Assembly: GCF_003473485.1 (NCBI RefSeq)
Contig: NC_053047.1
Coordinates: 32,660,972 to 32,724,971, forward strand
Reading direction: 5' to 3'
DNA length: 64,000 nucleotides
Source of the DNA: Medicago truncatula
Lineage: Eukaryota > Streptophyta > Magnoliopsida > Fabales > Fabaceae
The notes under the pieces are model-generated. The model was not told the origin of the DNA. It saw nothing but the letters and a program-made list of their open reading frames with translations, and searched no databases. Position numbers and translations under genes: made by a program. This document shows, piece by piece, positions 6,994 to 33,671 of this stretch (position 1 is the first letter of the stretch; every line of letters starts with the position of its first letter).

Positions 6994-8289
6994 TGTTGGA
7001 ACAAAATGTGTTTCACAATGAACCTTATTAAGTTTTGATGATAACAAGGTATTAAAAATTGTCAATTGGTTATTACTAATAATTGTTCAAGTGTACAGGA
7101 CCAAAGGCTACTCAAGTTATTTCAATAGGTCTTGGAAGAACAATGGAAAGAAAAAGAAATTCTGAGCATCTGAAGAAAACTGCTCCTGAAGCTAAACTGC
7201 TCCTGAAGAGATGACGTCATCAGAAGCAGAAAGTCATCAGAAGCAATATTTTCATCAGAAGCAAAAGTTTTCATCAGAAGCAATATTTTCACCAGAAGCT
7301 ACATTTGATCCTTTAATCAAACTGAAGATTCAAAGTTGCTGATTCTCAATTCAGTCTTATCAAAGAAGAACGAAGAACTGAAAGGGAGGTATCAACGGAT
7401 ATATGGATAACACTGAGCACTTGTCTCTCATTAATAGAGTTGACAAAGTACAAGTGTACAACCACTACCTCCACTACTCTGTTTTCTGTCTACGCTACAA
7501 GACAAAACAACAGCCATGCCTGCAGAATTTGTACAACTCAAGATGGGAATGAATTTGAAGTTTATTCTTCAAAGGACTACACCCAAATCAGGCAAAGGAT
7601 CACTGGTGGATAATCAAAGGATTTCAAACGACTCTTTAGACGTGCTGATTATCTCAACGTCTCTTTCACGCCTCTATATAAAGGAGTGAAGACTTGAAGA
7701 TAAAACAGAGATATACATAAGTTCAAAAGCGCCAAAACTCTGTCAATTTGATACTACAAAGCACACTGAATTTCTGCACTGATTTGATACATCTTAGAAA
7801 TTCATAGTCTAGAGTCTTTTCTGTATTGTATTGTGAACACCACTGATTGTATATCAAGTGTTCAATTCAAACTCAATTCTCTGTATTTTTGTTTGATTAG
7901 AAGTCTCTTGCCTGCGTGCTTGAGCATTAGAAGTCTCTTGCTTAGTGCTTGAGCATTGGAAGACTCTTGCGTGTGTGCTTGAGCATAGTTTTGTGAAGTC
8001 TCATACTTAGAAAGTATTGAGCAGTTGTAATCTTGTGATTATAGTGAAATCTCCTTGGAAGTGCAAGGGGGACTGGACTACTTCCGTGTTGTGGAAGGAA
8101 CCAGGATAACTGCTTGTGTCTTTGTCTTTCTTTTCTCTGCTCTGTTCTTTCCGCTGCATATCTGATTCTGATCATTTCATCAGAAGCACTCTCAAACTGC
8201 TTCTGAAGTTTTATCAGAAGAAGAATTTTTTTTAGACAGAAAAAGAAAACACAATTCAACCCCCCCTTCTTGTGTTTTTCTCACCTTCA
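6994..8289 (+). repeat. 3' LTR of the sirevirus element (1296 bp)
   Basis: Begins TGTTGGAACAAAATG directly after a purine tract and ends TTTTTCTCACCTTCA. The U3 part holds about six (T)CATCAGAAGCA words (7217-7300). A TATATAAAG box lies at 7675-7683 and is followed by a putative transcript start. Three to four imperfect 30-bp repeats (GAAGTCTCTTGC...GCTTGAGCAT) lie at about 7900-7990. The same family recurs at 56735-56848 and 57493-58730. The five bases after the LTR are GTATG; the matching copy lies outside the window. Confidence 0.93.
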
Positions 8290-8650
8290 GTATGCCCTTA
8301 ACAAACAGTGGATAGGCAAACAAAGCAAAGTAAAGCAGTAAAGGAAGAAGGTATTGCATTGGAAGAATGCCCGGGCCTTGACTTACCTTTACTTTAGGCA
8401 TAGCATTCGCCTATTTCCGCGAAAGCCTGATCCGTGCGCTGATCCTTCTTTCTATAGTAGGAAGAAAAGATCGCAAGGGAATCATAAGTTCCATGGGTAA
8501 ACCGAATCCGGGTATACCCATTTTTAGATCATGCCTCCGTAGTTTTTGGTATTTAAGCCTTCCATTTCTCTGCGACTTCTGGAACGGATGTGAACGTAAG
8601 AAATATAGAAAATTTATTCATTCCCATTTGGGCAAATCAGGCATGTCACA
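8290..8650. other. Possible mitochondrial-DNA insertion (NUMT-like)
   Basis: This stretch directly follows the LTR and is visibly richer in GC than the surroundings, with words such as TATTTCCGCGAAAGCCTGAT and GGAAGAAAAGATCGCAAGGG that look like plant mitochondrial intergenic DNA. No gene is seen. Assignment rests on sequence style only. Confidence 0.35.
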
Positions 8651-8751
8651 ATCACGAGGAGGATGAACTTGATCCTCACATTTCTATCACTATCACAACA
8701 AATACCTTTCAACTCGAGTAGGCTAAGTTTTTTTTATTGAAAAAATTCAAT

Positions 8752-9100
8752 CAAAAGCTTGTAAGTCTTTACTGTTAATTGAGGCAATTGGTCGACCTGT
8801 AGTAGGCAAATGTGTCAAAAACAAAACATCCTCCAATGCGACGTTCATGTTTTGACCACTGACTCGAAAATAAGAAACATTTTCTATATAGTTATAAAAT
8901 TACATGAACATTCTTAATAAAGATGTTGGTATTTCCACCGGTTGATTGGGGATAAGCCTTAGGAGTCTCAACAAAGAACTACCCTCATCATTATTTTCAA
9001 TTCTATCGTTGATTTTGGTTTTAAACGGTTCATCTAATGTTGACCATAATGTGTACATAGTTGTCAATTTAGAAGTTCCTTTTGTTTCCATTTCCTGCAT
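8752..9100 (-). pseudogene. Plant-mobile-domain (PMD/MAIN-like) relic
   Basis: On the minus strand two pieces can be read. One (9100-8900) contains LLRLLRLIPNQPVEIPTSLL. The other (about 8853-8752) reads MNVALEDVLFLTHLPTTGRP. The latter strongly resembles the 'ITLEDVLFLTGLPIDGRPV' type core of the plant mobile domain, found in MAIN-like proteins and in MULE/LTR-carried 'phosphatase 7 long form' genes. Stops separate and end the pieces, and the remainder of the domain is missing. The N-terminal piece is not securely assigned. A non-functional transposon-derived fragment is most likely. Confidence 0.55.
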
Positions 9101-9160
9101 TCATATAGTCACATATAATATTAATTTAACATCAAGCATGCCGTACCGAACCATTATATA

Positions 9161-9537
9161 AAGTCATCTGAACCAAACTGAACCGTTACAATTTTTTTAG
9201 AACCGAACTGAACCAAAAGTTTTGGTTTGATATAACTGTTCGGGATTCCGAACCATACGAAACCATTAGAAGACAATTTTTTTCAAACCGAACCATTTAT
9301 TAAAGAACCGGACCTTTATATTTGTTTTTGATTTTTTTTAATAAAAAACTATTTTTCCCTTACTATCTTATACAAACTCAATACTAAAGTCACTTGAATA
9401 ACTTGTCTTTTTTACCTTACCGTCTTATACAATTAATATAGCCACCCACCAACTCTTGAATTAATACAGGCAGTTACCATGCATTTTCTCCCAACATTTC
9501 CTCTAATTCCAATACATATGAAGAAATTGTCCGCTAT
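9161..9537. other. Intergenic, no gene; GAACCGAACTGAACC-type repeats
   Basis: Contains degenerate runs of (GAACCRAACTGAACC) words from about 9145 to 9310, a simple degenerate repeat common in plant intergenic DNA. Nothing coding was seen. It borders the CACTA terminus at 9538. Confidence 0.5.
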
Positions 9538-9900
9538 CACTACAAGAAATATTGAATTTTCCTACAAAGATTTTCGACGAAATTTCCTAGGAAAGGGTTT
9601 CCTACGAATTACCTACGAAACTTTCGTAGGAAAGCACATGTCAGTAAAAAAGGACCAGAAAAGTGGGGCGTGCCAGCTTGTGATTGGCTGCTTTTACCGA
9701 GGAATACTTTCCTAGGAAAGCAGCGGCCCCACATGCAGAAAAAGGGCGCGTGGGAGTATGTGATTGGCCTACGTTACCGACGAATATTTTCCTAGGAAAG
9801 CTGCGGCCCCACATGCAGAAAGCCGTTGGATATAGGGTGTGTGGCTGGTTGTGATTGGTGGAAATTACCTACGAAAATTTCGTCGGAAAACACGGGACCC
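9538..9900 (+). repeat. CACTA terminus and subterminal repeats, left
   Basis: CACTACAAGAAAT terminus followed by at least six palindromic or near-palindromic words such as CCTAGGAAAG, CCTACGAA and CGACGAAA in both orientations. The outer end of the right arm repeats this region at 27940-28306 in reverse complement with a few mismatches. Confidence 0.9.
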
Positions 9901-9935
9901 ACATTCTAACTAGCCGTTTGTTACCGTTGCAGCAT

Positions 9936-9943
9936 TATAAATA
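9936..9943 (+). promoter_or_regulatory. TATA box of the left TNP2 gene
   Basis: TATAAATA lies about 1.3 kb upstream of the putative TNP2 start and just downstream of the subterminal repeats, as expected for a CACTA promoter. It is followed by CT-rich leader sequence and by leader segments ending at GT-containing junctions that look like 5'-UTR introns. Confidence 0.6.
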
Positions 9944-11264
9944 TACAACTCTTCACTCTATTTTCTTCCTTACAATTTTCACTCTATTCTCACTCAATTT
10001 TTTTTTAATATCACTCAAATTTTATTCTCCATAATATTATTATCATTGTTGAAGTTTCTAACAAAGGTAATTATTGATATTTTCTTATAATTGATTTCAA
10101 TTTTACATGTGTTTGAATTTATAAATATTTAATATTGTTATATTTTAAAATAAGTTACATTTTTTTTTATAGTTATGTTGGTTCTGATTCATTTTGAGGT
10201 TGGTGTTGTTGTTCGTTGCCGTTGATTTTGCTGCCTCCGCTTAGTTCGTCGACTTATTATTTGAGGTTGGTACATTTCTAACTATTGCTACAATGGTATT
10301 AGTACTAAATATTAATTATTAGAAAAATAGTTACTAAAATTATTATATTGTAATTAATAAAAACGTTAGCGGGATTTTTCTAAAAAAAAATGTTAGTTGG
10401 ATTAACTTCTTTAAAAAAATATTTAGTGGGATTAAATTAAATTTCAACTTATTAGTGTTAGAGAGAGTATAATGAAAAAAGTGTTAGCTTGTAGAAAAAC
10501 TTGTAGTTTAGTTAAAAATGTTTACTTTTAAAAATGTGTGTATTTATATATATTGTTAATTTAGTTATTAAAATATGTTGCATTATTTTTCGTAGTTTCC
10601 TTGTTTTCGATCCATTTTAAAGTTGGTGTTGCTGCTAGCTGGTTGTTGGTTTTTTTTTTTTGGATCCACTTGTTCATTGGCTTGTTATTTGAGGTTAGTA
10701 TCTTTTATTTATTTAAAATTTATTCAATGGATTAGTATTAAAAATATTAGATATTAGAAACATAGTTAGTAAAATTAAATTGTAGTAAATATGTTATTTA
10801 GATCAAATTTGTTTTATGTAAAATAGATGTAGCTAGTAAAAATGTTACCGTAGTTCTTTAAAAAAAAGTTAAGTTAGTAAAGAAATATGTATAATTAAGT
10901 TTGTTAGAAAAATAATGTAAAGTAGCAAAAAAATTATGAAGTTAATTAATATGACATATGTGAATTATTTTGTGGGAACCAATTCTGGCGTCCGCGCTTA
11001 ACATTTATTTGTGGTTCGTAATTTGTATATGCACGCAATGTTTATTTCATACAAATTTTAGAAAATTTGATATAGATTAGAAAATGTTATATATTTTAGT
11101 CATAAAATATAAAATCTTATATAATTTTTATGCGATAGCATGTTTATTTTGTACAAATTTCTAAATATTTAGGTGATTAGAAAAAAATTGTTATTTATAT
11201 TAAAAAAATATTTACGTATAAAAATATATGGTACTAATTTGAGTCAACTGCAGCGACGCGAAAA

Positions 11265-14200
11265 ATGGATCAACATATTTTCCATCGTAGTTGGATGTAC
11301 GATAGAAAATATCCGGGGAAAAGGAAACTTAAGGCGGCTTTTGTGGATGGAGTTCGTGATTTTGTTGCTTACGCCATGGCGCAAGATGCCTTTCAATTGG
11401 AGGGAGGGATAAGATGTCCGTGTGTTAAATGTACGTGTAGGTTGATTCGGAGCCCAAAAGATGTTCTAAACCATTTAAAGGACCTTGGTTTTATGGAGAA
11501 TTATTATGTGTGGATTTATCACGATGAACAAGAGCCTACAAATAATACCGAGTCTGATGTTAATATGCACGCTTCAAGCAGCGAGGCGCGTATGGAGTGT
11601 GAAAACTTTGGCGTGATGGAAGATATGGTCGGTGATGCACTTGGGGTGAACCTGTCTTACAACGAGGGTGGTTAAGACGAAACAATCCCGAATGAGAAAG
11701 CGTTGAAGTTTTACAAGATGATGGAAGAAGTAAACAAGCCGTTGTTTGAAGGGTCGTCTGATTCTAAGTTATCAATGAGTGTGAGGCTTTTAGCTGCCGC
11801 GTCAGATTGGAGTGTAGCCGAAGAAGGCTCAGAGTGTTATACAGATATCATGAGGGACGCAACTCCTGTAAAGGACAATTTGCCCTTGAGTTTTTATGAG
11901 GCTCAAAAGTTGGTGGAGAAGTTGGGATTGGAAGTTAAAATTATTGATTGTTGCGTTAATGGGTGCATGTTGTTTTACGACAACGAATTTGGTAAAAATG
12001 ATGGGGCGTTGGTGGCGTGTAAATTTTGCAATGCACTGAGGTATGAAGTATGTGATGATGTCGGTTCTCAGAAGAAGAAACGAGTCTCAATCAAGTCAAT
12101 GTTTTATCTGCCAATAATACCAAGATTACAGAGATTGTTTGCATCAACTCACACGGCTGATAAAATGACATGGCATTATTACAATAAAACTAATTCAGGT
12201 GTGATGCGACATCCTTGTGACAGGGTGGCATGGAAGCACTTTGATCAAGTACATCGTGATTTTGCAGAAGATCCACGTAATGTGAGGCTTGGATTATGCT
12301 CTGATGGATTTATTCCATATATCCAAGCATCATCAACGCCTTATTCTTGTTGGCCAATTCTTCTTACCCCGTATAATCTTCCTCCTGAGATGTGCATGTC
12401 AAAGCCTTATTTGTTTTTGAGTTGTATTGTACCAGGACCTACGAGCCCATTAGATGGTATAGATGTGTATCTACAACCCTTAATTGATGATTTGAATAGA
12501 TTGTGGAACGGTGTATCGACATATGATATTGCAAGGAAGAAATTTTTTAGAATGAGGGCAGCTCTGATGTGGACTATTAACGACTTTCCTGCATATGGAA
12601 TGTTGTCTGGATGGTCGACTCATGGAAGATTGGCTTGTCCACATTGCTTGGAACAAACAAAGGCCATATGGTTGCATCACGGAAGAAAGCATTCGTGGTT
12701 TGACTGTCATCGTCCGTTTTTACCCGCGACACATGAATTTCGTAAGAAGAAGAATTTGTTTACTAAAGGAAAAACAGAAAAAGATGGCCCGCCTCCTAGG
12801 ACGACATCAGAGGAAGTATACCGTAGAGTCAATGAACTAGGACTTTTGAAATTCACAGATGTTGGCAAAAGAGTCAGACACCCATAATACGGTAACGAGC
12901 ACCATTGGACCAAAAGAAGTATCTTCTGGGATCTCCCTTACTGGAAAGATAATTTACTGAGACATAATCTTGATGTTATGCACATTGAAAAGAACTTTTG
13001 TGACAATATAATTCACACAGTGATGAATGTCTCTGGTAAAACAAAAGATAATGAGAAGGCTAGAATGGACTTGCCATTGCATTGTAAGAGACCAGAAATG
13101 GAGCTACAACTTCTTCAAAATGGAAAATATCTAAAACCCAAGGCTGTTTATAGTCTTACTGCTGATGAAGCAAAATCTGTTTGTCAATGGTTGAAAGAGT
13201 TGAGGATGCCAGACGGATATTGTTCTAACTTGTCGAGGTGTGCCGACGTCAACTCAGGAAGACTGCATAGAATGAAAAGTCATGATTCCCACGTTTTCTT
13301 GGAACGCTTACTTCCAATTGCGTTTAGCTCATTGCCAAACAATGTCTTAAACCCCTTGACTGAAATTAGCCTTTTTTTTAAAGACTTGTGCGCTTCAACC
13401 TTGAGGATGGATGAACTTGTTAAAATGGATCAAAATATGCCTATCACTCTTTGTAAACTAGAGCAAGTTTTTCCCCCGGGTTTCTTTGATTCTATGGAAC
13501 ATCTTCCTGTGCATCTCGCATACGAAGCTTGGCTCGGTGGACCTGTTCAATATAGGTGGATGTATCCTTTTGAAAGGTTCATGGGTTATGCAAAGCAAAT
13601 GGTGAGAAATAAAGCAAGGGTTGAGGGATCAATAGTTGCAGCTTATGTGCGTCGGGAAACAAACTATTTCATCTCTCATTACTTCAACCCGTTGATGTTG
13701 ACCCCAAGAAATACACGAAATGAATTTATTGTTGAAAGTGAAGGGTTTCAGTCTGCCTTATCAGTTTTTCGTCACCAAGGACGTCCTTGTCATCCAGGGA
13801 AATATTACTGGATGAACGACACAGAGTTGCAGTCAGCGACAATTCATGTGATGATTAATTGTAGCGAAGTTGGACCATACATTGAGATATTTCAAGGATT
13901 AAATATCGGCAACATATATACAAGTTTTCAAGGATGGTTTAAGCATCAATTGTTAAATTCTCATCCGACTACACAAATATATCATTTGAGGGGATTAGCC
14001 GAAGGTCCGGGAAGAAAAGTCAAACAATGGGACACTTACTTTGTCAATGGGTTTAAATTTCATACTCAATCACGGTCAGTGGGCAAAAAAACAATTAACA
14101 GTGGTGTTTACGTCAAAGGAATCAGTGATGGAGGTGAAGATGACTTCTATGGTGTGATCAAACACATATTTGAAGTAACTTACCTATATGTAGATCAACC

Positions 14201-14693
14201 TAACAAAGTTGTATTGTTTTATTGTGACTGGTTTGACCCTGCAAATGGGATGAAAATTGATCCAAAGCATAAAACTGTTGATGTACGAATGAACAGGATG
14301 TATAATGCATTTGACCCTTTCATTTTGGCAAGTAAAGTTAGTCAAGTGTATTATGTACCCTATCCTTCTCATCACCAGCGTAAACATGGATGGTGTGCTG
14401 CTATCAAGTGTAAACCAAGAGGTAAATTTGAGACAGAAGTTCCAGATAAAGAAATACCTTACCAAGATGATGAAATATCACAAGTTCCAGATGTGATTGA
14501 AGTTGATCCTGTTACAAATTTGGTTGACAGAGATGTTGACGGTCAACAACTTGATGCTGAAACGTTAGCTCAAATGTTACTTATTGACACTGATAGTGGG
14601 GAGGAGTCAAGTAACTCTAGAGACAATGAGGAAGATGCAAATAACCCTGACAACAACAATGTGGATGATTTTTATTGTGACGATGATGAATAA
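11265..14693 (+). pseudogene. CACTA transposase TNP2, left copy, two nonsense codons
   Basis: A single 1143-codon frame interrupted by TAA at 11673-11675 and TAA at 12885-12887, with no frameshift. The N-terminus (RSWMYDRKYPGKRK; GGIRCPCVKC) is a transposase-associated domain. Transposase_21/TNP2 follows, with LGLCSDGF near residue 345 and MHIEKNFCDN at 572-581. A DUF4218-like block (LPNNVLNPLTEISLFFKDLC through LGGPVQYRWMYPFERFMGY) and a DUF4216-like block (VLFYCDWFDP; YYVPYP) lie in the C-terminal half. The second stop falls before the HIEKN motif that holds a presumed catalytic Glu, so the product would be inactive. The first stop is private to this arm; the second is shared with the right arm. 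Start at 11265 chosen because the domain begins immediately after it. Confidence 0.9.
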
Positions 14694-14763
14694 CCCTTCA
14701 TAAAACACATGATGTTTTTAATGTAATTATTTTATCATAATAATGAAACATTTATGTTTAATA

Positions 14764-14910
14764 CTCCCTCCGGTCTTATTTACAAGAGAAAATTGACTTT
14801 TTAGATACATTGAATAATGTATGTATCTAGTCAAGAACCTAAACCAAATACATAAATTATTTAATGTATCTAAAAAGTAAATTGTCTCTTGTAAATAGGA
14901 CCGAAGGGAG
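14764..14910. mobile_element. Stowaway-like MITE, left CACTA arm
   Basis: 147-bp element with inverted ends CTCCCTCCGGTC...GACCGAAGGGAG and a TA duplication on both sides (14762-14763, 14911-14912). It lies just downstream of the TNP2 stop codon. An equivalent copy occupies the same place in the right arm, so it inserted before the palindrome formed. Confidence 0.85.
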
Positions 14911-16215
14911 TATTAATTATCTACCTAATGTATTTTTTATATCATTTATTATCTAACTCATATATTAAAAAATTATTTATAAGATATTGTAAAATAAATA
15001 AAATAAAATGTTGTGAAAATGAAAGAAAGGGTCTCGTAGCTTACTTTTCCATTCCAATTTCAATCTCCCTCCCACCTCTTTTCCCCAATTTCAATCTCCC
15101 TCCAACACCTCCAAAACCCTAAAATCTCAAACTCACTCACTCATCAATCTCAATTTTCGCTCCGTCGCTCAGTCGCCATTCACCAACTCAGTCGCTCAGT
15201 CGCCGTTCACCAACTCAGTCGCTCCTCACTCCTTCCTCCTTCCTTTTCCTCGTTATGGCTTCACACGCTCTCGCTCTCACACTCCCAACCTAGCCTACAC
15301 ACTCGATTCAGATTCTTGTCACTTCCAAACCTAGCTTCTCACAATCGGTCCAATAGTTCCAATCGGTGCTACAATTGCTCAGTTTCCAACTCACTCAGTC
15401 CACAATCCATCACCGTTGATTTTATTGCTCTAAAAGGTTAGTGAATCACCTTTGCTAAATTGATTTTATTGCTGCTAATTTGTGATTTAAAATATTAGGG
15501 TTTTCTGATTTGGTCTGGGTTCTTTTGATAAGTTAACACGTTTGGGTTCTTTTGGTTTGTATACACATAAAATTTGATTTGGGTTCCCTAATGTTCTTTT
15601 GGTTTTCATAACATGTTGTTTGAAAAATAAATCTTTGGATGTATGGTTTATGTAATTACAAGGTTGATCAAATGGTGTTTATGGTGTTGATATCTGTTGC
15701 ATTCATGCTATAAAGTATGGAGCTGAACAATGCATTCAACTTTTATAAGTTGTTTTCTAATTCATTTATTCAAATTCCATTGTGAATGTATTTTTTTTGC
15801 TTATAAGACCTGTGCTAATTTGACTCATATTGCATTTATCTATGCTATGATAATTGCAGCCTGTGTGGTCGTTTTTTATTCTTCTTCTAGAAGCCGTGTC
15901 CGCCGTGTTCTCAATCGCTCAAGAAACCACTGTCGCCGTCCTTCCTTCCTTCCTTCACTGTATACCGCTGCCGCCGTTCATCAGGTTAGTTACTTCTTAA
16001 AATTTTTAAAGTCTATTTGATATAGTGACCTTCGCATAACTAGCATTCATTTTAATATTGAGTGTCAGTACTGCATATGTTTTAGAATTAATTTTGTATG
16101 AGTATCATTTTAATTAAAAGTTTGGTTTATGTTAACTTGGTGATGATATCTCCAAGTTGAATTCCACTAAATTCTTGAGGTAGTGTTTTCGCTGCTCCCT
16201 TTTCCACCATGATAT

Positions 16216-16305
16216 AGCCGTGTCGGTGTCCTAAGTTTTTTTAGATTAGCCGTGTCCCGTGTCCGTGTCGTGTCCCGTGTCCGTGTCCGAGTTCGTGCTT
16301 CATAG
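16216..16305 (+). repeat. CGTGTC-rich tandem repeat, left CACTA arm
   Basis: Irregular tandem array of GTGTCC/CGTGTC units ending in GAGTTCGTGCTTCATAG. The reverse complement lies in the right arm (about 21516-21606). A related end (CTATGAAGCACGGACAC) is found upstream of the MATE gene near 45042. Confidence 0.7.
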
Positions 16306-16954
16306 GGTTTTCAGTGTAATTCTACAAAACCAATCCAAAAGTTCAGTTTTGTTCGTAAACAGACTTAAACTTCCTCTATTTAATTAAAATATCAAACGGT
16401 GTCCGAATTGAGTAAACGAACATTCCCTGGAAAACTTAGAATGTCAAGAATATAAATATAATTTTACTTTTGGTGTTTAAATATCCAATTTGTACAGTTT
16501 TACTAATGAACGTGTACAGGTACAGAAACATGTTAGCAGTTTTACCAATTTGCTGCAAAAGTCAGAATTTCAATCTATTCCTCTTTTTTCTTTTTTTCAC
16601 TTACTCAATTGATCATACTTCTACATTTCTTAATCTATGACATTATTACCATAACATAATAGTATAAAAGTAACTTTATGCTGATTCAAATCTGTTAGTG
16701 TGCATTTAGGTTTCGTCATTAGGTGTCGCCGTCGTGGTTAGGTAAGAGCTATGAATTGTGGGTTGAGAGTTAACATGTGTTTACCTTTTTGAATACCATG
16801 CGTACTACCCATCCATCTTTCTGAATTACTGATACAGTGTAGTTGAATTGAATGTATCATTGCATTTTTTCTTGATGTTAAACCTGTGCGTATTTTAGAG
16901 CATTAATCAACTCTTTTTATTTATGTTCCCGACTGTTTAGGCAAGCAGACAGGG

Positions 16955-18495
16955 ATGTCTGGACGAGACAAGGATAAGGGTAAGGCTCATGTTGTAGATC
17001 ATGGGAAGCCAAAGAAAAAGAAGAATGGAAGAATAGATGTTTCCTCAGACCCTACCAGACAGTGGGTTCGGCCGACGGGGATTACCTTCCGTAACATTGA
17101 TGAACGGACTGGTACTCCTATTCCTACTGGTACTCCTATTCCTACTGCTACTACTCCACCTCCTTACCCCACTCCATTCCCGACTATTCCTCCCGCACCA
17201 TTCCCGCCTATTCTTCCCGCATCATTTCCAGCAGCTACTACTAGCCAGCCCCCTTCCGCACCATTCTCACCTATTCTTCCCGCATCATTTCCAGCAGCTA
17301 CTACTAGCCAGCCCCCCATATATTCTAGTCCTGGTTTTGCCATGCCTGGATTTACTCCGCCATCGACACACTCGCCAAATTACAACACCACCCGATCTAA
17401 TGTCCGACAAGGCTTTAACACATCCGTTCCATCACAATCATCAACGGAACTGATGCAAGATCTTATGCAAACTGGAAATTTCCTAGCCTTACTTGCTGAT
17501 CAACGACCTCCACAACAACAGCAACAACAACAACAAAACAACCAAAATGAAGAGGTACCGTATGAAGAGGTACCGTCTGGGGCTGATCAAAGACGACGAC
17601 AACGACGTCAAATCATTGAAGACTGGGAGTATGTGGATAACCTTGTTGTGGTTACACCAACACCTGAAACGTAAGTAATAAAAATTTAATTTGTTACCTA
17701 TGTTTGACTTAATTCTTATCAGTTTTTTAAATAAATAATTTAATTAACAATTCAAATTTGTAGGTTAGAGCCATCCCACGGAGTATCAGAACATATTAGA
17801 ATGGCGATCCAGACGTTTTACCCTAAAGATAGGCGTTGGGCCGTATATTCAGATCTTACTACCAATGACAGGAACGACCTTTTTAAATACTTTTCGGTAA
17901 ACACATTTTATTGAATATTAAATAATTGTATTTACTTTATAATATGGTTTATTTTTTACATTACTAAATGTCTAATAATTTTTTTTATTGTAGGATTTTT
18001 GTAGATGGGAACCTCATCATCACACTCTTGTAGAGAGAAACTTTCATAGGGTAGCTGCAAGACGTTTATCAGATTTGTTATATGATGAACGACAGGAATT
18101 GAAAAAACGTAAGGGCAATTATCGTACACAATGGATCGGAGAGAAAAGCTGGGAGTTATTGCTGAAGTATTGGAATGAAGATCCACATTTTAAGAATCGG
18201 TCCAAAGCTAACAAGGTGAATAGGGCATCTATTGTAGGAGGGCAGTTGCACGCACAAGGTTCTGTCAGTACCGCTACCTATGCTAGAGATTTGGTAAAAA
18301 AAATATATTTAACTATTTATATTTCTATATATATGTATATATTCAATTTTCCAAATGTTCTAATTGGTTAATATTTGTGTGTACAATTAGCGAAATAGAT
18401 TGGGTAGAGTTCCTTATCCGGAAGAGATCCATGATGTAACTCGTTTCAGTCAGAATCTTGGTCGGTATGTTGATGCTCGAGCTAGCAATACCCAG
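16955..18495 (+). pseudogene. CACTA second gene (Transposase_24, Ptta/En/Spm), left, 3'-truncated
   Basis: Four exons with canonical splice sites can be joined in frame: 16955-17670, 17764-17896, 17994-18293 and 18391-18495. Exon 1 encodes a basic N-terminus (RDKDKGKAHVVDHGKPKKKK), a Pro-rich repeat segment and a poly-Gln stretch. Exons 2-4 encode a plant En/Spm Transposase_24-type domain (FYPKDRRWAVYSD; RVAARRLSDLLYDERQELKK; NRASIVGGQLHAQGSVS). The reading ends at the donor site after 18495; the following exons are lost at the palindrome junction. In intact elements this second gene likely encodes the DNA-binding partner of TNP2; that role is inferred from the family. Confidence 0.82.
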
Positions 18496-18890
18496 GTAAA
18501 TTCTTAATAATTTTATGTTCTCTGCTGTGTTCAAAGGATGTGGGTCGTGTGTCGGTCATATGGTTTATAGCTTGATCTTTAGTGAATTGAATTGTACTAG
18601 CTGGATCTTTAGTTTATACATCAAAAGGTCTTCTACAACTTCTGTTACATATATAGTATCATGCTAACAATGCCAAAGTACCTACCTGCTAAGAGCCTAA
18701 TAAGTATGTTAGTTATCAAAATATTATTGCATTTCATGCTGATATCAATGGTTTATGAAAAAAGGAAATGACTATTATTACGTGTACTAGCCGAAAGACG
18801 AACACAACATCAATGGCATGCTGTTTTGTTACTGACAGTGGTTAGGGAGTGAGTTTTTTAGGTGATCCATTTTTTGTATGTGGCTTTTCT

Positions 18891-18948
18891 GTTTTGGTGT
18901 TGATAGCTTGCTGCTGCTGTGTAACAAAACACTAAAGATGGATCACCT
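18891..18948. other. 58-bp spacer at the centre of the CACTA palindrome
   Basis: Unmatched sequence between the two arms. It begins GTTTTGGTGTTGATAG and ends ATGGATCACCT. The 12-mer ATGGATCACCTA at 18938-18949 is repeated at 18969-18980 inside the right arm, a hint of template switching at short homology. No gene is seen. Confidence 0.85.
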
Positions 18949-19343
18949 AGAAAAGCCACATACAAAAAATGGATCACCTAAAAAACTCACTCACTAACCA
19001 CTGTCAGTAACAAAACAGCATGCCATTGATGTTGTGTTCGTCTTTCGGCTAGTACACGTAATAATAGTCATTTCCTTTTTTCATAAACCATTGATATCAG
19101 CATGAAATGCAATAATATTTTGATAACTAACATACTTATTAGGCTCTTAGCAGGTAGGTACTTTGACATTGTTAGCATGATACTATATATGTAACAGAAG
19201 CTGTAGAAGACCTTTTGATGTATAAACTAAAGATCCAGCTAGTACAATTCAATTCACTAAAGATCAAGCTATAAACCATATGACCGACACACGACCCACA
19301 TCCTTTGAACACAGCAGAGAACATAAAATTATTAAGAATTTAC

Positions 19344-20866
19344 CTGGGTATTGCTAGCTCGAGCATCAACATACCGACCAAGATTCTGACTGAAACGAGT
19401 TACATCATGGATCTCTTCCGGATAAGGAACTCTACCCAATCTATTTCGCTAATTGTACACACAAATATTAACCAATTAGAACATTTGGAAAATTGAATAT
19501 ATACATATATATAGAAATATAAATAGTTAAATATATTTTTTTTACCAAATCTCTAGCATAGGTAGCGGTACTGACAGAACCTTGTGCGTGCAACTGCCCT
19601 CCTACAATAGATGCCCTATTCACCTTGTTAGCTTTGGACCGATTCTTAAAATGTGGATCTTCATTCCAATACTTCAGCAATAACTCCCAGCTTTTCTCTC
19701 CGATCCATTGTGTAAGATAATTGCCCTTACGTTTTTTCAATTCCTGTCGTTCATCATATAACAAATCTGATAAACGTCTTGCAGCTACCCTATGAAAGTT
19801 TCTCTCTACAAGAGTGTGATGATGAGGTTCCCATCTACAAAAATCCTACAATAAAAAAAATTATTAGACATTTAGTAATGTAAAAAATAAACCATATTAT
19901 AAAGTAAATACAATTATTTAATATTCAATAAAATGTGTTTACCGAAAAGTATTTAAAAAGGTCGTTCCTGTCATCGGTAGTAAGATCTGAATATACGGCC
20001 CAACGCCTATCTTTAGGGTAAAACGTCTGGATCGCCATTCTAATATGTTCTGATACTCCGTGGGATGGCTCTAACCTACAAATTTGAATTGTTAATTAAA
20101 TTATTTATTTAAAAAACTGATAAGAATTAAGTCAAACATAGGTAACAAATTAAATTTTTATTACTTACGTTTCAGGTGTTGGTGTAACCACAACAAGGTT
20201 ATCCACATACTCCCAGTCTTCAATGATTTGACGTCGTTGTCGTCGTCTTTGATCAGCCCCAGACGGTACCTCTTCATACGGTACCTCTTCATTTTGGTTG
20301 TTTTGTTGTTGTTGTTGCTGTTGTTGTGGAGGTCGTTGATCAGCAAGTAAGGCTAGGAAATTTCCAGTTTGCATAAGATCTTGCATCAGTTCCGTTGATG
20401 ATTGTGATGGAACGGATGTGTTAAAGCCTTGTCGGACATTAGATCGGGTGGTGTTGTAATTTGGCGAGTGTGTCGATGGCGGAGTAAATCCAGGCATGGC
20501 AAAACCAGGACTAGAATATATGGGGGGCTGGCTAGTAGTAGCTGCTGGAAATGATGCGGGAAGAATAGGTGAGAATGGTGCGGAAGGGGGCTGGCTAGTA
20601 GTAGCTGCTGGAAATGATGCGGGAAGAATAGGCGGGAATGGTGCGGGAGGAATAGTCGGGAATGGAGTGGGGTAAGGAGGTGGAGTAGTAGCAGTAGGAA
20701 TAGGAGTACCAGTCCGTTCATCAATGTTACGGAAGGTAATCCCCGTCGGCCGAACCCACTGTCTGGTAGGGTCTGAGGAAACATCTATTCTTCCATTCTT
20801 CTTTTTCTTTGGCTTCCCATGATCTACAACATGAGCCTTACCCTTATCCTTGTCTCGTCCAGACAT
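19344..20866 (-). pseudogene. CACTA second gene (Transposase_24), right, 3'-truncated
   Basis: Mirror of the left gene. Exons by symmetry: 20866-20169, 20075-19943, 19845-19546 and 19448-19344; the exon 2 outer edges and the inner edge of exon 4 were confirmed at the base level. Exon 1 lacks one 18-bp Pro-Thr repeat unit present in the left copy, giving 233 instead of 239 codons before the splice region. One visible substitution changes Arg to Leu (KGNYLTQW instead of KGNYRTQW). Truncated like its partner. Confidence 0.82.
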
Positions 20867-21515
20867 CCCTGTCTGCTTGCCTAAACAGTCGGGAACATAA
20901 ATAAAAAGAGTTGATTAATGCTCTAAAATATGCACAGGTTTAACATCAAGAAAAAATGCAATGATACATTCAATTCAACTACACTATATCAGTAATTCAG
21001 AAAGATGGATGGGTAGTACGCATGGTATTCAAAAAGGTAAACACATGTTAACTCTCAACCCACAATTCATAGCTCTTACCTAACCACGACGGCGACACCT
21101 AATGACGAAACCTAAATGCACACTAACAGATTTGAATCAGCATAAAGTTACTTTTATACTATTATGTTATGGTAATAATGTCATAGATTAAGAAATGTAG
21201 AAGTATGATCAATTGAGTAAGTGAAAAAAAGAAAAAAGAGGAATAGATTGAAATTCTGACTTTTGCAGCAAATTGGTAAAACTGCTAACATGTTTCTGTA
21301 CCTGTACACGTTCATTAGTAAAACTGTACAAATTGGATATTTAAACACCAAAAGTAAAATTATATTTATATTCTTGACATTCTAAGCTTTCCAGGGAATG
21401 TTCGTTTACTCAATTCGGACACCGTTTGATATTTTAATTAAATAGAGGAAGTTTAAGTCTGTTTACGAACAAAACTGAACTTTTGGATTGGTTTTGTAGA
21501 ATTACACTGAAAACC

Positions 21516-21606
21516 CTATGAAGCACGAACTCGGACACGGACACGGGACACGACACGGACACGGGACACGGCTAATCTAAAAAAACTTAGGACACCGACA
21601 CGGCTA
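21516..21606 (-). repeat. CGTGTC-rich tandem repeat, right CACTA arm
   Basis: Reverse complement of the left array (CTATGAAGCACGAACTCGG then GACACGGACACGG units). Confidence 0.7.
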
Positions 21607-22604
21607 TATCATGGTGGAAAAGGGAGCAGCGAAAACACTACCTCAAGAATTTAGTGGAATTCAACTTGGAGATATCATCACCAAGTTAACATAAACCAAA
21701 CTTTTAATTAAAATGATACTCATACAAAATTAATTCTAAAACATATGCAGTACTGACACTCAATATTAAAATGAATGCTAGTTATGCGAAGGTCACTATA
21801 TCAAACAGACTTTAAAAATTTTAAGAAGTAACTAACCTGATGAACGGCGGCAGCGGTATACAGTGAAGGAAGGAAGGAAGGACGGCAACAGTGGTTTCTT
21901 GAGCGATTGAGAACACGGCGGACACGGCTTCTAGAAGAAGAATAAAAAACGACCACACAGGCTGCAATTATCATAGCATAGATAAATGCAATATGAGTCA
22001 AATTAGCACATGTCTTATAAGCAAAAAAAATACATTCACAATGGAATTTGAATAAATGAATTAGAAAACAACTTATAAAAGTTGAATGCATTGTTCAGCT
22101 CCATACTTTATAGCATGAATGCAACAGATATCATCACCATAAACACCATTTGATCAACCTTGTAATTACATAAACCATACATCCAAAGATTTATTTTTCA
22201 AACAACATGTTATGAAAACCAAAAGAACATTAGGGAACCCAAATCAAATTTTATGTGTATACAAACCAAAAGAACCCAAACGTGTTAACTTATCAAAAGA
22301 ACCCAGACCAAATCAGAAAACCCTAATATTTTAAATCACAAATTAGCAGCAATAAAATCAATTTAGCAAAGGTGATTCACTAACCTTTTAGAGCAATAAA
22401 ATCAACGGTGATGGATTGTGGACTGAGTGAGTTGGAAACTGAGCAATTGTAGCACTGATTGGAACTATTGGACCGATTGTGAGAAGCTAGGTTTGGAAGT
22501 GACAAGAATCTAAATCGAGTGTGTAGGCTAGGTTGGGAGTGTGAGAACGAGAGCGTGTGAAGCCATAACGAGGAAAAGGAAGGAGGAAGGAGTGAGGAGC
22601 GACT

Positions 22605-22685
22605 GAGTTGGTGAACGGCGACTGAGCGACTGAGCGACTGAGTTGGTGAATGGCGACTGAGTTGGTGAATGGCGACTGAGCGACG
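22605..22685 (-). repeat. GAGTTGGTGAAYGGCGACT tandem repeat, expanded in right arm
   Basis: Tandem GGTGAACGGCGACTGAGCGACTGAG-type units just 5' (minus strand) of the second gene's leader. The right arm is 27 bp longer across this interval than the left arm (about 15165-15225), consistent with one extra unit. It supports real divergence of the arms. Confidence 0.7.
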
Positions 22686-22937
22686 GAGTGAAAATTGAGA
22701 TTGATGAGTGAGTGAGTTTGAGATTTTAGGGTTTTGGAGGTGTTGGAGGGAGATTGAAATTGGGGAAAAGAGGTGGGAGGGAGATTGAAATTGGAATGGA
22801 AAAGTAAGCTACGAGACCCTTTCTTTCATTTTCACAACATTTTATTTTATTTATTTTACAATATCTTATAAATAATTTTTTAATATATGAGTTAGATAAT
22901 AAATGATATAAAAAATACATTAGGTAGATAATTAATA

Positions 22938-23084
22938 CTCCCTTCGGTCCTATTTACAAGAGACAATTTACTTTTTAGATACATTAAATAATTTATGTAT
23001 TTGGTTTAGGTTCTTGACTAGATACATACATTATTCAATGTATCTAAAAAGTCAATTTTCTCTTGTAAATAAGACCGGAGGGAG
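22938..23084. mobile_element. Stowaway-like MITE, right CACTA arm
   Basis: Mirror of the left MITE, 147 bp with TA on both sides (22936-22937, 23085-23086). Confidence 0.85.
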
Positions 23085-23154
23085 TATTAAACATAAATGT
23101 TTCATTATTATGATAAAATAATTACATTAAAAACATCATGTGTTTTATGAAGGG

Positions 23155-26100
23155 TTATTCATCATCGTCACAATAAAAATCATCCACATTGTTGTTGTCA
23201 GGGTTATTTGCATCTTCCTCATTGTCTCTAGAGTTACTTGACTCCTCCCCACTATCAGTGTCAATAAGTAACATTTGAGCTAACGTTTCAGCATCAAGTT
23301 GTTGACCGTCAACATCTCTGTCAACCAAATTTGTAACAGGATCAACTTCAATCACATCTGGAACTTGTGATATTTCATCATCTTGGTAAGGTATTTCTTT
23401 ATCTGGAACTTCTGTCTCAAATTTACCTCTTGGTTTACACTTGATAGCAGCACACCATCCATGTTTGCGCCGGTGATGAGAAGGATAGGGTACATAATAC
23501 ACTTGACTAACTTTACTTGCCAAAATGAAAGGGTCAAATGCATTATACATCCTGTTCATTCGTACATCAACAGTTTTATGCTTTGGATCAATTTTCATCC
23601 CATTTGCAGGGTCAAACCAGTCACAATAAAACAATACAACTTTGTTAGGTTGATCTACATATAGGTAAGTTACTTCAAATATGTGTTTGATCACACCATA
23701 GAAGTCATCTTCACCTCCATCACTGATTCCTTTGACGTAAACACCACTGTTAATTGTTTTTTTGCCCACTGACCGTGATTGAGTATGAAATTTAAACCCA
23801 TTGACAAAGTAAGTGTCCCATTGTTTGACTTTTCTTCCCGGACCTTCGGCTAATCCCCTCAAATGATATATTTGTGTAGTCGGATGAGAATTTAACAATT
23901 GATGCTTAAACCATCCTTGAAAACTTGTATATATGTTGCCGATATTTAATCCTTGAAATATCTCAATGTATGGTCCAACTTCGCTACAATTAATCATCAC
24001 ATGAATTGTCGCTGACTGCAACTCTGCGTCGTTCATCCAGTAATATTTCCCTGGATGACAAGGACGTCCTTGGTGACGAAAAACTGATAAGGCAGACTGA
24101 AACCCTTCACTTTCAACAATAAATTCATTTCGTGTATTTCTTGGGGTCAACATCAACGGGTTGAAGTAATGAGAGATGAAATAGTTTGTTTCCCGACGCA
24201 CATAAGCTGCAACTATTGATCCCTCAACCCTTGCTTTATTTCTCACCATTTGCTTTGCATAACCCATGAACCTTTCAAAAGGATACATCCACCTATATTG
24301 AACAGGTCCACCGAGCCAAGCTTCGTATGCGAGATGCACAGGAAGATGTTCCATAGAATCAAAGAAACCCGGGGGAAAAACTTGCTCTAGTTTACAAAGA
24401 GTGATAGGCATATTTTGATCCATTTTAACAAGTTCATCCATCCTCAAGGTTGAAGCGCACAAGTCTTTAAAAAAAAGGCTAATTTCAGTCAAGGGGTTTA
24501 AGACATTGTTTGGCAATGAGCTAAACGCAATTGGAAGTAAGCGTTCCAAGAAAACGTGGGAATCATGACTTTTCATTCTATGCAGTCTTCCTGAGTTGAC
24601 GTCGGCACACCTCGACAAGTTAGAACAATATCCGTCTGGCATCCTCAACTCTTTCAACCATTGACAAACAGATTTTGCTTCATCAGCAGTAAGACTATAA
24701 ACAGCCTTGGGTTTTAGATATTTTCCATTTTGAAGAAGTTGTAGCTCCATTTCTGGTCTCTTACAATGCAATGGCAAGTCCATTCTAGCCTTCTCATTAT
24801 CTTTTGTTTTACCAGAGACATTCATCACTGTGTGAATTATATTGTCACAAAAGTTCTTTTCAATGTGCATAACATCAAGATTATGTCTCAGTAAATTATC
24901 TTTCCAGTAAGGGAGATCCCAGAAGATACTTCTTTTGGTCCAATGGTGCTCGTTACCGTATTATGGGTGTCTGACTCTTTTGCCAACATCTGTGAATTTC
25001 AAAAGTCCTAGTTCATTGACTCTACGGTATACTTCCTCTGATGTCGTCCTAGGAGGCGGGCCATCTTTTTCTGTTTTTCCTTTAGTAAACAAATTCTTCT
25101 TCTTACGAAATTCATGTGTCGCGGGTAAAAACGGACGATGACAGTCAAACCACGAATGCTTTCTTCCGTGATGCAACCATATGGCCTTTGTTTGTTCCAA
25201 GCAATGTGGACAAGCCAATCTTCCATGAGTCGACCATCCAGACAACATTCCATATGCAGGAAAGTCGTTAATAGTCCACATCAGAGCTGCCCTCATTCTA
25301 AAAAATTTCTTCCTTGCAATATCATATGTCGATACACCGTTCCACAATCTATTCAAATCATCAATTAAGGGTTGTAGATACACATCTATACCATCTAATG
25401 GGCTCGTAGGTCCTGGTACAATACAACTCAAAAACAAATAAGGCTTTGACATGCACATCTCAGGAGGAAGATTATACGGGGTAAGAAGAATTGGCCAACA
25501 AGAATAAGGCGTTGATGATGCTTGGATATATGGAATAAATCCATCAGAGCATAATCCAAGCCTCACATTACGTGGATCTTCTGCAAAATCACGATGTACT
25601 TGATCAAAGTGCTTCCATGCCACCCCGTCACAAGGATGTCGCATCACACCTGAATTAGTTTTATTGTAATAATGCCATGTCATTTTATCAGCCGTGTGAG
25701 TTGATGCAAACAATCTCTGTAATCTTGGTATTATTGGCAGATAAAACATTGACTTGATTGAGACTCGTTTCTTCTTCTGAGAACCGACATCATCACATAC
25801 TTCATACCTCAGTGCATTGCAAAATTTACACGCCACCAACGCCCCATCATTTTTACCAAATTCGTTGTCGTAAAACAACATGCACCCATTAACGCAACAA
25901 TCAATAATTTTAACTTCCAATCCCAACTTCTCCACCAACTTTTGAGCCTCATAAAAACTCAAGGGCAAATTGTCCTTTACAGGAGTTGCGTCCCTCATGA
26001 TATCTGTATAACACTCTGAGCCTTCTTCGGCTACACTCCAATCTGACGCGGCAGCTAAAAGCCTCACACTCATTGATAACTTAGAATCAGACGACCCTTC

Positions 26101-26583
26101 AAACAACGGCTTGTTTACTTCTTGCATCATCTTGTAAAACTTCAACGCTTTCTCATTCGGGATTGTTTCCTCTTCACCACCCTCGTTGTAAGACAGGTTC
26201 ACCCCAAGTGCATCACCGACCATATCTTCCATCACGCCAAAGTTTTCACACTCCATACGCGCCTCGCTGCTTGAAGCGTGCATATTAACATCAGACTCGG
26301 TATTATTTGTAGGCTCTTGTTCATCGTGATAAATCCACACATAATAATTCTCCATAAAACCAAGGTCCTTTAAATGGTTTAGAACATCTTTTGGGCTCCG
26401 AATCAACCTACACGTACATTTAACACACGGACATCTTATCCCTCCCTCCAATTGAAAGGCATCTTGCGCCATGGCGTAAGCAACAAAATCACGAACTCCA
26501 TCCACAAAAGCCGCCTTAAGTTTCCTTTTCCCCGGATATTTTCTATCGTACATCCAACTACGATGGAAAATATGTTGATCCAT
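23155..26583 (-). pseudogene. CACTA transposase TNP2, right copy, single nonsense codon
   Basis: 1143-codon frame with one in-frame TAA (24963-24961 on the minus strand), the same one seen in the left copy. The first 540 codons are uninterrupted here: where the left arm has TAA this arm has GAA (Glu). Domains are as in the left copy: transposase-associated N-terminus, Transposase_21/TNP2, then DUF4218-like and DUF4216-like blocks, ending in an acidic tail (SGEESSNSRDNEEDANN). Differences from the left copy include Glu/Gln, Arg/Gly and Thr/Ala changes. The shared stop precedes the MHIEKN motif, so the family member was already disabled before the palindrome formed unless the stop is read through. 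Confidence 0.9.
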
Positions 26584-27900
26584 TTTTCGCGTCGTTGCAG
26601 TTGACTCAAATTAGTACCATATATTTTTATACGTAAATATTTTTTTAATATAAATAACAATTTTTTTCTAATCACCTAAATATTTAGAAATTTGTACAAA
26701 ATAAACATGCTATCGCATAATAATTATATAAGATTTTATATTTTATGACTAAAATATATAACATTTTCTAATCTATATCAAATTTTCTAAAATTTGTATG
26801 AAATAAACATTGCGTGCATATACAAATTACGAACCACAAATAAATGTTAAGCGCGGACGCCAGAATTGGTTCCCACAAAATAATTCACATATGTCATATT
26901 AATTAACTTATTATTTGCTACTTTACATTATTTTTCTAACAAACTTAATTATACATATTTCTTTACTAACTTAACTTTTTTTTAAAGAACTACGGTAACA
27001 TTTTTACTAGCTACATTTATTTTACGTAAAACAAATTTGATCTAAATAACATATTTACTACAATTTAATTTTACTAACTATGTTTCTAATATCTAATATT
27101 TTTAATACTAATCCATTGAATAAATTTTAAATAAATAAAAGATACTAACCTCAAATAACAAGCCAATGAACAAGTGGATCCAAAAAAAAAAAAAACCAAC
27201 AACCAGCTAGCAGCAACACCAACTTTAAAATGGATCGAAAACAAGGAAACTACGAAAAATAATGCAACATATTTTAATAACTAAATTAACAATATATATA
27301 AATACACACATTTTTAAAAGTAAACATTTTTAACTAAACTACAAGTTTTTCTACAAGCTAACACTTTTTTCATTATACTCTCTCTAACACTAATAAGTTG
27401 AAATTTAATTTAATCCCACTAAATATTTTTTTAAAGAAGTTAATCCAACTAACATTTTTTTTTAGAAAAATCCCGCTAACGTTTTTATTAATTACAATAT
27501 AATAATTTTAGTAACTATTTTTCTAATAATTAATATTTAGTACTAATACCATTGTAGCAATAGTTAGAAATGTACCAACCTCAAATAATAAGTCGACGAA
27601 CTAAGCGGAGGCAGCAAAATCAACGGCAACGAACAACAACACCAACCTCAAAATGAATCAGAACCAACATAACTATAAAAAAAAATGTAACTTATTTTAA
27701 AATATAACAATATTAAATATTTATAAATTCAAACACATGTAAAATTGAAATCAATTATAAGAAAATATCAATAATTACCTTTGTTAGAAACTTCAACAAT
27801 GATAATAATATTATGGAGAATAAAATTTGAGTGATATTAAAAAAAATTGAGTGAGAATAGAGTGAAAATTGTAAGGAAGAAAATAGAGTGAAGAGTTGTA

Positions 27901-27908
27901 TATTTATA
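27901..27908 (-). promoter_or_regulatory. TATA box of the right TNP2 gene
   Basis: TATAAATA on the minus strand, mirror of 9936-9943. Confidence 0.6.
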
Positions 27909-27939
27909 ATGCTGCAACGGTAACAAACGGCTAGTTAGA

Positions 27940-28306
27940 ATGTGGGTCCCGTGTTTTCCGACGAAATTTTCGTAGGTAATTTCCACCAATCACAACCAGC
28001 CACACACCCTATATCCAACGGCTTTCTGCATGTGGGGCCGCAGCTTTCCTAGGAAAATATTCGTCGGTAACGTAGGTCAATCACATACTCCCACGCGCCC
28101 TTTTTCTGCATGTGGGGCCGCTGCTTTCCTAGGAAAGTATTCCTCGGTAAAAGCAGCCAATCACAAGCTGGCACGCCCCACTTTTCTGGTCCTTTTTTAC
28201 TGACATGTGCTTTCCTACGAAAGTTTCGTAGGTAATTCGTAGGAAACCCTTTCCTAGGAAATTTCGTCGGAAATCTTTGTAGGAAAATTCAATATTTCTT
28301 GTAGTG
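27940..28306 (-). repeat. CACTA terminus and subterminal repeats, right
   Basis: Reverse-complement copy of the left terminus; the final CACTACAAGAAATATTGAAT is identical to the left one and the first mismatch is about 37 bases in. Confidence 0.9.
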
Positions 28307-29418
28307 TCTTGAGCTCCTCAAAACTCCATCGGCTCCTCAGGTTGTCATTGTTGATTTATCTCATCCTACTTAATATTTGATTATTTCCTCTTTCTCCTCC
28401 GTCAATCAATGATTTCATTTTGGATTTTTGTTTTTAGTTTAGAGTTTCTTTGTGTTGCTATTGTGCAGAATCTGAGAAAGGAAATGAGACTATGCACATT
28501 AGAGACCATTTGATTCATAAAATTTGAGGTATTGGCCTCTTCTTTACTTACCCTTTTCATATTCTATTTGTGTGAGATTTTGTTTGTTTGTTTCCTCATT
28601 ATTGCGTGCAACATTTTTGTCGTGGTTCATTTCATCTGGACTATTTCATCATGTTTATCTCATAAATGGATTTGTGTCTGTTTCTATTTTAAGTTTTGTT
28701 GTTTCTATGTGATATTTACGTTTCACTATCAATGTTGTTACAGTTTTGTACTTTTGTTTCACACATTCTATTTTTAATTTTGCTATTTGTGTACTTTGTC
28801 ATAAGGAAGGCATTCATCCTTATCTTAACTAATTAAGTTTCTTGCGATGATTTTTCTTCTTCTTCTTCTTCTATTGAATTAGCTCATTTGTTAAAAGGAC
28901 CATTCTATTGTTACCATAATGCAGTTTACCATTTTACATATTGTTAAAGAGGCCAAGGATATACTTAATGATAAATTTTCTGTGTGTTTAAGGACATGGT
29001 TCATCTTTTAACAAATGCATTTAATTAATGTAGGACATCAGTTTTAACTTAAGGTTATTTCAGATGCATCCTATACATAAATTGCAAGTTAAGGTTTAAG
29101 TCTCTTGACATGTCTCTTGAAATAGTTTTATTTTCCCATCAAAATATTCAAATTACTACACTGTTGCAATGAAATTGCCTAGAATTTGAGTGGTTTTACA
29201 TTTTTTTTATTGAACAATTAGAGAAGGAATGATACATCTATATTGTTATTAGGTTACAACTGCCACCCTATATACCAATTTGACATTTCAAGTATTCTTT
29301 TGTTTATATAACTTATCTCTATCAATTGGTGTTTCATGGTAAGAGAGTGTTGATACATTTTTTTAGACCGGTTGTTTAGGTTATGAACTATTTCACCTCA
29401 CCTTCAATGGCACATTTG
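28307..29418. other. Intergenic, no gene recognised
   Basis: AT-rich with no credible coding frame. A possible splice-like TATTGTGCAG occurs near 28465, but no exon could be supported. A short CTT repeat lies at about 28856-28871. Confidence 0.5.
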
Positions 29419-32470: not shown

Positions 32471-33100
32471 ATGTTAAAGAAGCAATAAGATGGATGTAAA
32501 TGAGAATAGGGTGAGGTGAGTTAAGAAATAGATAAGGTTAAAGATACTAATAGCGGTAAGGGTAAATGTCAAGAAATTTTTATTTGAATTTTTTTCAAAA
32601 AATGTTTAATGACCCATAACCCGCTCGTTATTGGGTTGGTTCGGCTCGGACTTAACATAAAAAATGCAGCTCTTTTACATAACCCAAATCAATTAGATTT
32701 AATCAGATCGGATAACAGATTTGGCCAAAATCGACCCAACCCAATCCGTGTACATCCGACATGTGTGCGCTCACGAATGCTTTTGTGGGCCCAGGTGTGC
32801 AGAGCAGTGCTGAAATTTCACTGTTTTACCTTATATGATTTCAGTTTTATTCAATTTACTGCTCCTATAACAACCATCTCTCGTTAAACCGCAGACAAAT
32901 ATTAAAGATAACCGTACTCCTTTCCTAAAAAAGAAAAGAAAGGATAACCGTACTCTTTATTGATTGATGTATAAAACAATGCATATTCTTCTACAGTTTC
33001 CACAATCTATCCAATCACTTTAATAAAATCAATAACGCAAAAGCCAATTTAATTCACACTACGTTTCAAGAACTAATATCAGTTCCTATCACTCTAATTT
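32471..33100. other. Intergenic; includes a GTTGGTTCGGCTCGGA repeat
   Basis: No gene. A segment at about 32610-32750 (TTGGGTTGGTTCGGCTCGG and GACCCAACCCAATCCG) looks like a dispersed repeat. The last part is the presumptive promoter region of the small peptide gene. Confidence 0.45.
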
Positions 33101-33107
33101 ATATTTC

Positions 33108-33115
33108 TATAAATT
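33108..33115 (+). promoter_or_regulatory. TATA-like box of the small secreted peptide gene
   Basis: TATAAATT about 70 bases upstream of the ATG at 33184, a plausible distance for a short leader. Confidence 0.45.
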
Positions 33116-33183
33116 GTGTTAATTAATTTGGAGGCAATTTCTTTCATACAAAAAAAAAAGGTAAAATAAAACAAGTTAATACT

Positions 33184-33417: not shown

Positions 33418-33671
33418 CATCCCAACTAGTTCTATTATTTCGTAATCACAAACTTTAGTTTGACATCTAATCTCGACGGTCCATTGTACAAATATTCAAG
33501 TACCACGTATTTGATCCCACATCGCCCATATGAGACACAAGGCGTGGTTGAAGTCTACAGAAAAACAAGGTTTGTTGCGTAATTGAAACCATCTTTGCGC
33601 TTGGGGCAATGACGCAACTAATGAGGTTCTAACCGAGGCACGTCTATTGCTGGTTGAAAACTATTTTCAAA

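Follow-up and report, generated by a model that had tools for sequence, protein, structure and literature searches.

A CACTA transposon palindrome with two outward 5' ends in Medicago truncatula and the templated junction at its centre

Mu killer (Muk), a locus of the maize Mutator system, is described as an inverted duplication in which two like termini are brought together with two partial copies of the transposase gene (PMC3440606). Each half of Muk extends 1.298 kb into mudrA, its central portion is reported as one that could not be sequenced, and it silences MuDR in many of the plants tested (PMC3440606). A related arrangement is reported for the Drosophila mariner MITEs Dromar7, 11, 28 and 36, in which the 3' part has been replaced by 5' sequence to generate long inverted repeats; these elements are short, at about 460-1000 bp, and have transposed at least once, and the origin of such rearrangements is called elusive by the authors (PMC4161770). 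Microhomology-guided switching within a DNA transposon is also described for the formation of Pack-TIR elements, which capture non-transposon DNA (PMC8277862). With respect to the joining of broken ends, insertions templated by the flanking DNA are reported as products of polymerase theta, with snap-back copying forming a minor part of such events (PMC5068794).

The locus presented here may be regarded as a very large version of the form already known from Mu killer and the 5'-for-3' mariner MITEs, in which the junction that would mark its birth can be read. Its distinctive features are its size, its CACTA family and that readable junction. As with Mu killer, two copies of one terminus flank inverted partial transposase genes, although the element belongs to CACTA rather than to Mutator, its centre is fully legible and it is known here from sequence alone. 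Unlike the mariner elements it measures 18.8 kb and was found in one copy. Foldback MITEs are short, multi-copy elements that have moved as a unit, a description that does not fit a structure of this length whose centre occurs once among the genome-search matches returned. The likeness to Pack-TIR formation lies in the apparent switching at microhomology within a DNA transposon, whereas in this case the element would have copied itself. No CACTA 5'-5' palindrome was noticed in the titles and abstract openings of the papers searched, and no claim of a first description is made.

The window, which is the whole stretch of 64,000 nucleotides that was analysed (G000:C6:32660972-32724971), comes from a 429.9-Mb assembly of 42 contigs. 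Self-BLAST of the window gives a single inverted alignment of 9538-28306 with 28306-9538, an inverted duplication of 18.8 kb with arms of about 9.36 kb each. The left arm (9538..18923, + strand) carries the 5' part of a CACTA element with its 5' terminus outward and tracks the family sequence up to 18923, and the right arm (18950..28306, - strand) is an inverted copy of the same 5' part whose inner end corresponds to left-arm position 18889. With the centre left out, the alignment covers 9352 left-arm positions (24 are gapped on the right arm) and shows 31 substitutions between the arms together with a few indels. In the self-BLAST identity of 98.9% each difference enters twice and the centre is included, which means that the arms are more alike than the figure indicates. 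The near-perfect palindrome of 18.8 kb that had been claimed in a sequence-only reading of this DNA is therefore confirmed.

Both borders begin with CACTACAAGAAAT, at 9538..9550 on the + strand and at 28294..28306 on the - strand, and these are the sole two matches in the window to the terminus pattern used. The first 17 bases are common to the 5' and 3' ends of the family, and from base 18 onward both palindrome ends are of the 5' type. The mirror similarity ends at the termini, as a comparison of the flanks beyond them gives a score of 30, which was equalled or exceeded by 171 of 200 shuffles. When the 3' tails of four relatives were searched for in the window no full match was found, the only hits being to the subterminal motif, to the terminal 27 bp and to one stretch of 20 bp. 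The two identical, outward 5' termini and the missing 3' terminus of the sequence-only reading are both confirmed in this way. The structure thus has the CACTA terminal repeat of the CACTA (En/Spm) superfamily at each border, but instead of a 5' end and a 3' end that differ in their subterminal regions it has two 5' ends, and in place of a 3-bp target-site duplication it is flanked by unlike triplets, TAT on the left (9535..9537, + strand) and TCT on the right (28307..28309, + strand). It is a derivative of the CACTA family rather than a standard member.

Each arm contains a TNP2-type transposase frame of 1143 codon positions, at 11265..14693 (+) in the left arm and 23155..26583 (-) in the right, with matches to the TNP2 domains PF02992, PF13963, DUF4218 and DUF4216; the E-value for PF02992 is 1e-79 in the left arm and 2.4e-81 in the right. 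The left frame has two internal stops, at 11673 and 12885, of which the former is found in the left arm alone of the two and the latter is also the single internal stop of the right frame. This premature stop at 12885 is absent from the five copies, out of ten, that cover the site. For the right-arm frame the nearest named protein comes from Medicago truncatula, with 96% identity over 83% of the query. TNP2 is followed in each arm by a truncated Transposase_24 (TnpA-like) gene, as had been proposed, although the profile match is weak and partial, covering positions 2-47 of 138 and reaching 18.1 and 19.2 bits against a cutoff of 28.7. The left gene lies at 16955..18497 (+), with exon bounds set by eye and relatives that extend past the break, and the right gene at 19342..20866 (-), with an inner bound taken from the arm alignment.

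Ten related loci from the same genome were fetched and extended, and two more (C8b and C2c) were added later. The search for intact relatives that had been suggested recovered six copies (C1a, C6a, C2a, C2b, C1b and C4b) in which both termini were found by pattern and which, in contrast to the palindrome, have one 5' and one 3' end. In these relatives the 5' and 3' subterminal regions are unlike, as had been stated for a normal CACTA element. Five of the six are flanked by perfect 3-bp duplications (ATT, ACT, ATA, GGC and ACT), the exception being C4b with TTT and GAA. The first 12 terminal bases of the palindrome are common to all six, and the bases that follow are also found in C1a, C2b and C4b. 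Most aligned blocks between the palindrome and these relatives are 94-98% identical, with some at 76-92%. Their 3' ends lie 1.23-1.31 kb past the point at which the left arm stops, and what the palindrome lacks is this last part, which holds the final portion of the Transposase_24 gene together with the 3' terminus. As judged by eye, the tail of C1a has additional coding-like sequence and a different subterminal region.

Other copies are less complete. C4a, the fetched copy nearest to the palindrome, keeps a 5' end and has lost its last part; a loose 3' terminus pattern gave one match beyond it, which lacks the full terminal sequence and was not accepted as its 3' end. C8b and C2c also have a 5' end and no 3' end in the stretch examined, and the terminus patterns did not find both ends in C6b, C8a and C1c. 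The copies with a 5' end and no 3' end in the stretch examined lie at C4:25925353-25936079, C8:30970500-30978105 and C2:22208500-22214169. Since several copies keep the 5' end only, it is not uncommon for members of this family to have lost the 3' end. Among the 53 matches read, which concern one family, no other 5'-5' palindrome was noticed; apart from the palindrome treated here, the most closely spaced convergent 5' ends noticed are on C2, where 22168082 (+) and 22213707 (-) are separated by about 45 kb; the former is that of C2a, a copy with a 3' end of its own.

The arms share ancestry to the exclusion of the fetched copies. In 8038 alignment columns the two arms have the same state and three or more other copies are represented; 12 changes there, among them the one that creates the TNP2 stop, occur in both arms and in none of the copies that cover each site. 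The divergence between the arms is 0.33%, and that to C4a is 0.88-0.92%. When the 31 differences between the arms are polarised, 15 are derived in the right arm and 12 in the left (seven of the polarised sites depend on C4a alone), three are ambiguous because both states occur among other copies, and one is uncovered. A 5-bp deletion is private to the right arm, the bases being present in the nine other copies shown, and a 27-bp duplication in the right arm is absent from C4a, the sole copy covering that place. An 18-bp repeat has one unit fewer in the right arm than in the left, with the right-arm state in C1a, C1c, C1b and C8a and the left-arm state in C4a and C6a. From these comparisons it would appear that one element was duplicated and that the two arms then decayed independently, with some homoplasy or conversion. 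At an assumed substitution rate of 7e-9 per site per year, the 0.33% divergence would correspond to an age of about 0.24 million years if gene conversion between the arms is ignored.

The centre of the palindrome records where the element was broken. Of nine copies aligned over this region, seven (C4a, C1a, C6a, C2a, C2b, C1b and C4b) match the left arm, apart from a few differences, up to 18922 or 18923 and part from it beyond that point, and the more distant C6b and C1c diverge a few bases before the break. The order at the centre is the left arm to 18923, a filler of 26 bp (18924..18949, without assigned strand) and then the right arm from the mirror of 18889. Together with its left edge, the filler is tiled by three exact copies of the opposite strand, namely 18921-18931 (11 bp, from 19007), 18930-18939 (10 bp, from 19255) and 18938-18949 (12 bp, from 18969). 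Neighbouring pieces overlap by 2 bp, all three sources fall within the first 315 bp of the right arm, and the left break shows 3 bp of microhomology (18921-18923). The 27-bp string 18923-18949 can be built from three exact pieces of a 501-bp opposite-strand template at the centre, whereas shuffled versions of the string need a mean of 5.96 pieces and not one among 5000 can be built from three or fewer. The best of 72 control templates (36 half-overlapping arm stretches, each taken on both strands) needs five pieces, and the same-strand template needs six, a value matched by 46% of shuffles. Among the genome-search matches returned, none crosses the filler outside the palindrome and none is a second copy of the centre.

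Microhomology combined with an insert copied from flanking DNA is what is expected of polymerase theta or of template switching, and the scar looks like the kind left by polymerase-theta-like joining or by fold-back repair. It is from the scar that polymerase theta may be proposed as the enzyme. The sequence appears compatible both with joining to the broken end of a sister chromatid and with folding back of the element's own strand; the minor share of snap-back copying among the joining events of PMC5068794 leans towards two sister ends.

The reading preferred here, to which a probability of about 80% is given, is that one broken CACTA element was joined to its own inverted sequence by templated end joining and that the arms subsequently mutated independently. 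The process would have started from a single CACTA (En/Spm-type) element that already carried the TNP2 stop and that broke about 1.25 kb before its expected 3' end. The broken end would have gone through several short rounds of copying primed by microhomology, in the manner of polymerase-theta-type end joining, and would then have been joined to the same sequence in the opposite orientation, so that the 5' part was duplicated inversely and the 3' tail was lost, and each arm would then have gathered mutations of its own. For at least one 5' end, the border would have been fixed either by a transposase cut or by repair switching at the 17 terminal bases common to the 5' and 3' ends. Such a step is needed because the outer borders fall exactly on the terminal base, and because a fold-back in place would have mirrored the flank too. 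Against this reading it may be held that one filler piece has its template some 310 bp inside the arm. Moreover, with unlike triplets, no perfect target-site duplication and no empty site found, the joining of the right 5' end to its present flank is left unaccounted for.

Two alternatives concern the duplication itself. The sequence-only reading had built the palindrome from two CACTA transposons. In the corresponding alternative, near-identical copies inserted tail to tail in separate events and both 3' parts were then deleted. The unlike flanking triplets would suit such a history, and because three of the 31 sites and the 18-bp repeat show both states among other copies, there is room for homoplasy, gene conversion or two sources. 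Both copies would, however, have to be cut at corresponding places no more than 34 bp apart, and neither the 12 changes common to the arms nor a single junction with filler templated by the opposite strand would be expected. On the shared changes and the filler the idea of two independent insertions was dropped as very unlikely, and very probably one element was duplicated in inverted orientation. The other alternative is that a single-copy element was folded or chimerically joined during assembly. Palindromes are classic assembly traps, and the present conclusion is drawn from assembled sequence. An artefact is nevertheless highly improbable because each arm carries its own mutations: the 31 substitutions are polarised to both arms against other copies, and the right arm has a 5-bp deletion of its own as well as a 27-bp duplication for which only C4a gives the polarity. 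In addition, the flanks differ and the filler is ordered and templated.

Three further proposals are variants of the outer-border step only and leave the duplication as it is. In one, a break spared no more than 17 bp of the 3' terminus on the right side, and this remnant paired with the identical 5' terminus and primed copying of the 5' half inward until the copies met at the centre. This gap repair in place is a tentative possibility that requires no movement of the palindrome, makes use of the 17 identical terminal bases and of the template switching evident at the centre, and has a parallel in the 5'-for-3' replacement of mariner MITEs (PMC4161770). Yet it predicts equal triplets rather than TAT and TCT, and the nearest fetched copy is itself without a 3' end, such that the source may have had none. 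In another, the palindrome formed elsewhere and was excised by transposase acting on the two 5' ends before inserting at this site. The exact borders, at which the mirror similarity ends, agree with such a transposition, and movement is reported for rearranged mariner elements that have two 5' ends (PMC4161770). It is doubtful all the same, since the perfect 3-bp duplication seen in five of the six two-ended relatives is missing and no second copy is among the genome-search matches returned. A true duplication that had mutated, at about 0.16% change per arm, has an estimated chance of about 1%, as against 18% for exactly two of three bases matching by chance. The mobilisation as one unit that had been envisaged for the structure is, on these grounds, a possible but doubtful step. 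Equally doubtful is the third proposal, alternative transposition or capture by end joining, in which one 5' end kept its original position while the other became attached to new DNA, the flanks thus deriving from different places. Such an event accounts for both the unlike triplets and the exact termini, and it has been proposed for two head-to-head VANDAL21 elements, of a Mutator-type family, in Arabidopsis (PMC12312487). The rearrangement partner was not identified, however, and neither a close 3' tail starting at the break nor a displaced 3' half was present among 48 matches (40 of 55 candidates scored).

The search for an empty site compared the joined flanks with two paralogues, neither of which spans the site. 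The left flank (8591-9432) has an inverted paralogue of about 90% similarity at C6:32648040-32648879, which lies some 12 kb upstream of where the window starts; the similarity stops 105 bp short of the border. On the right, a weak paralogue on C3 starts 43 bp inside.

With regard to what the preferred reading implies, a legible whole centre points to one break and templated end joining as the source of such a structure, where the origin of the mariner rearrangements is called elusive (PMC4161770) and the Muk centre is reported as unsequenced (PMC3440606). The present effect of the palindrome is most likely none, or else a putative hairpin RNA if it is transcribed across the centre. It is rather improbable that it represents a CACTA counterpart of Mu killer, that is, a product of fold-back repair whose two 5' ends could be used by transposase as a pair and whose convergent arms would give rise to hairpin RNA silencing the family from which it derives. 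It does offer a naturally occurring site at which to ask whether a palindrome silences the CACTA family to which it belongs, and for specialists its value may lie in the junction and in this possible natural silencer.

Several other features were noted in the window. A second, more diverged inverted duplication, with arms about 80-90% alike, occupies 34540-37076 and ends in CAATGGCGG and CAGTGGCGG, which we take to be hAT-like ends; it has a DUF4371 match just under the cutoff, and its flanks, GTCATAGT and GATGGAAA, show no 8-bp duplication. Positions 6994-8289 of the window and C6:32651256-32652568 are direct copies, 98.7% alike, with a copia-type polymerase frame between them, and appear to represent a young LTR retrotransposon that reaches into the window. 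The stretch 8330-8590 has by eye the look of organelle-derived DNA and is a candidate for such an origin. Stretches similar to 32809-33270 are found upstream of the window. A small peptide frame at 33184-33417 has, by eye, a signal-like start and cysteines, and no Pfam match at 0.1. A match to U4 spliceosomal RNA (77.2 bits) lies at 33591-33749, and one to the MIR2617 precursor (64.5 bits) at 59064-59148 on the - strand.
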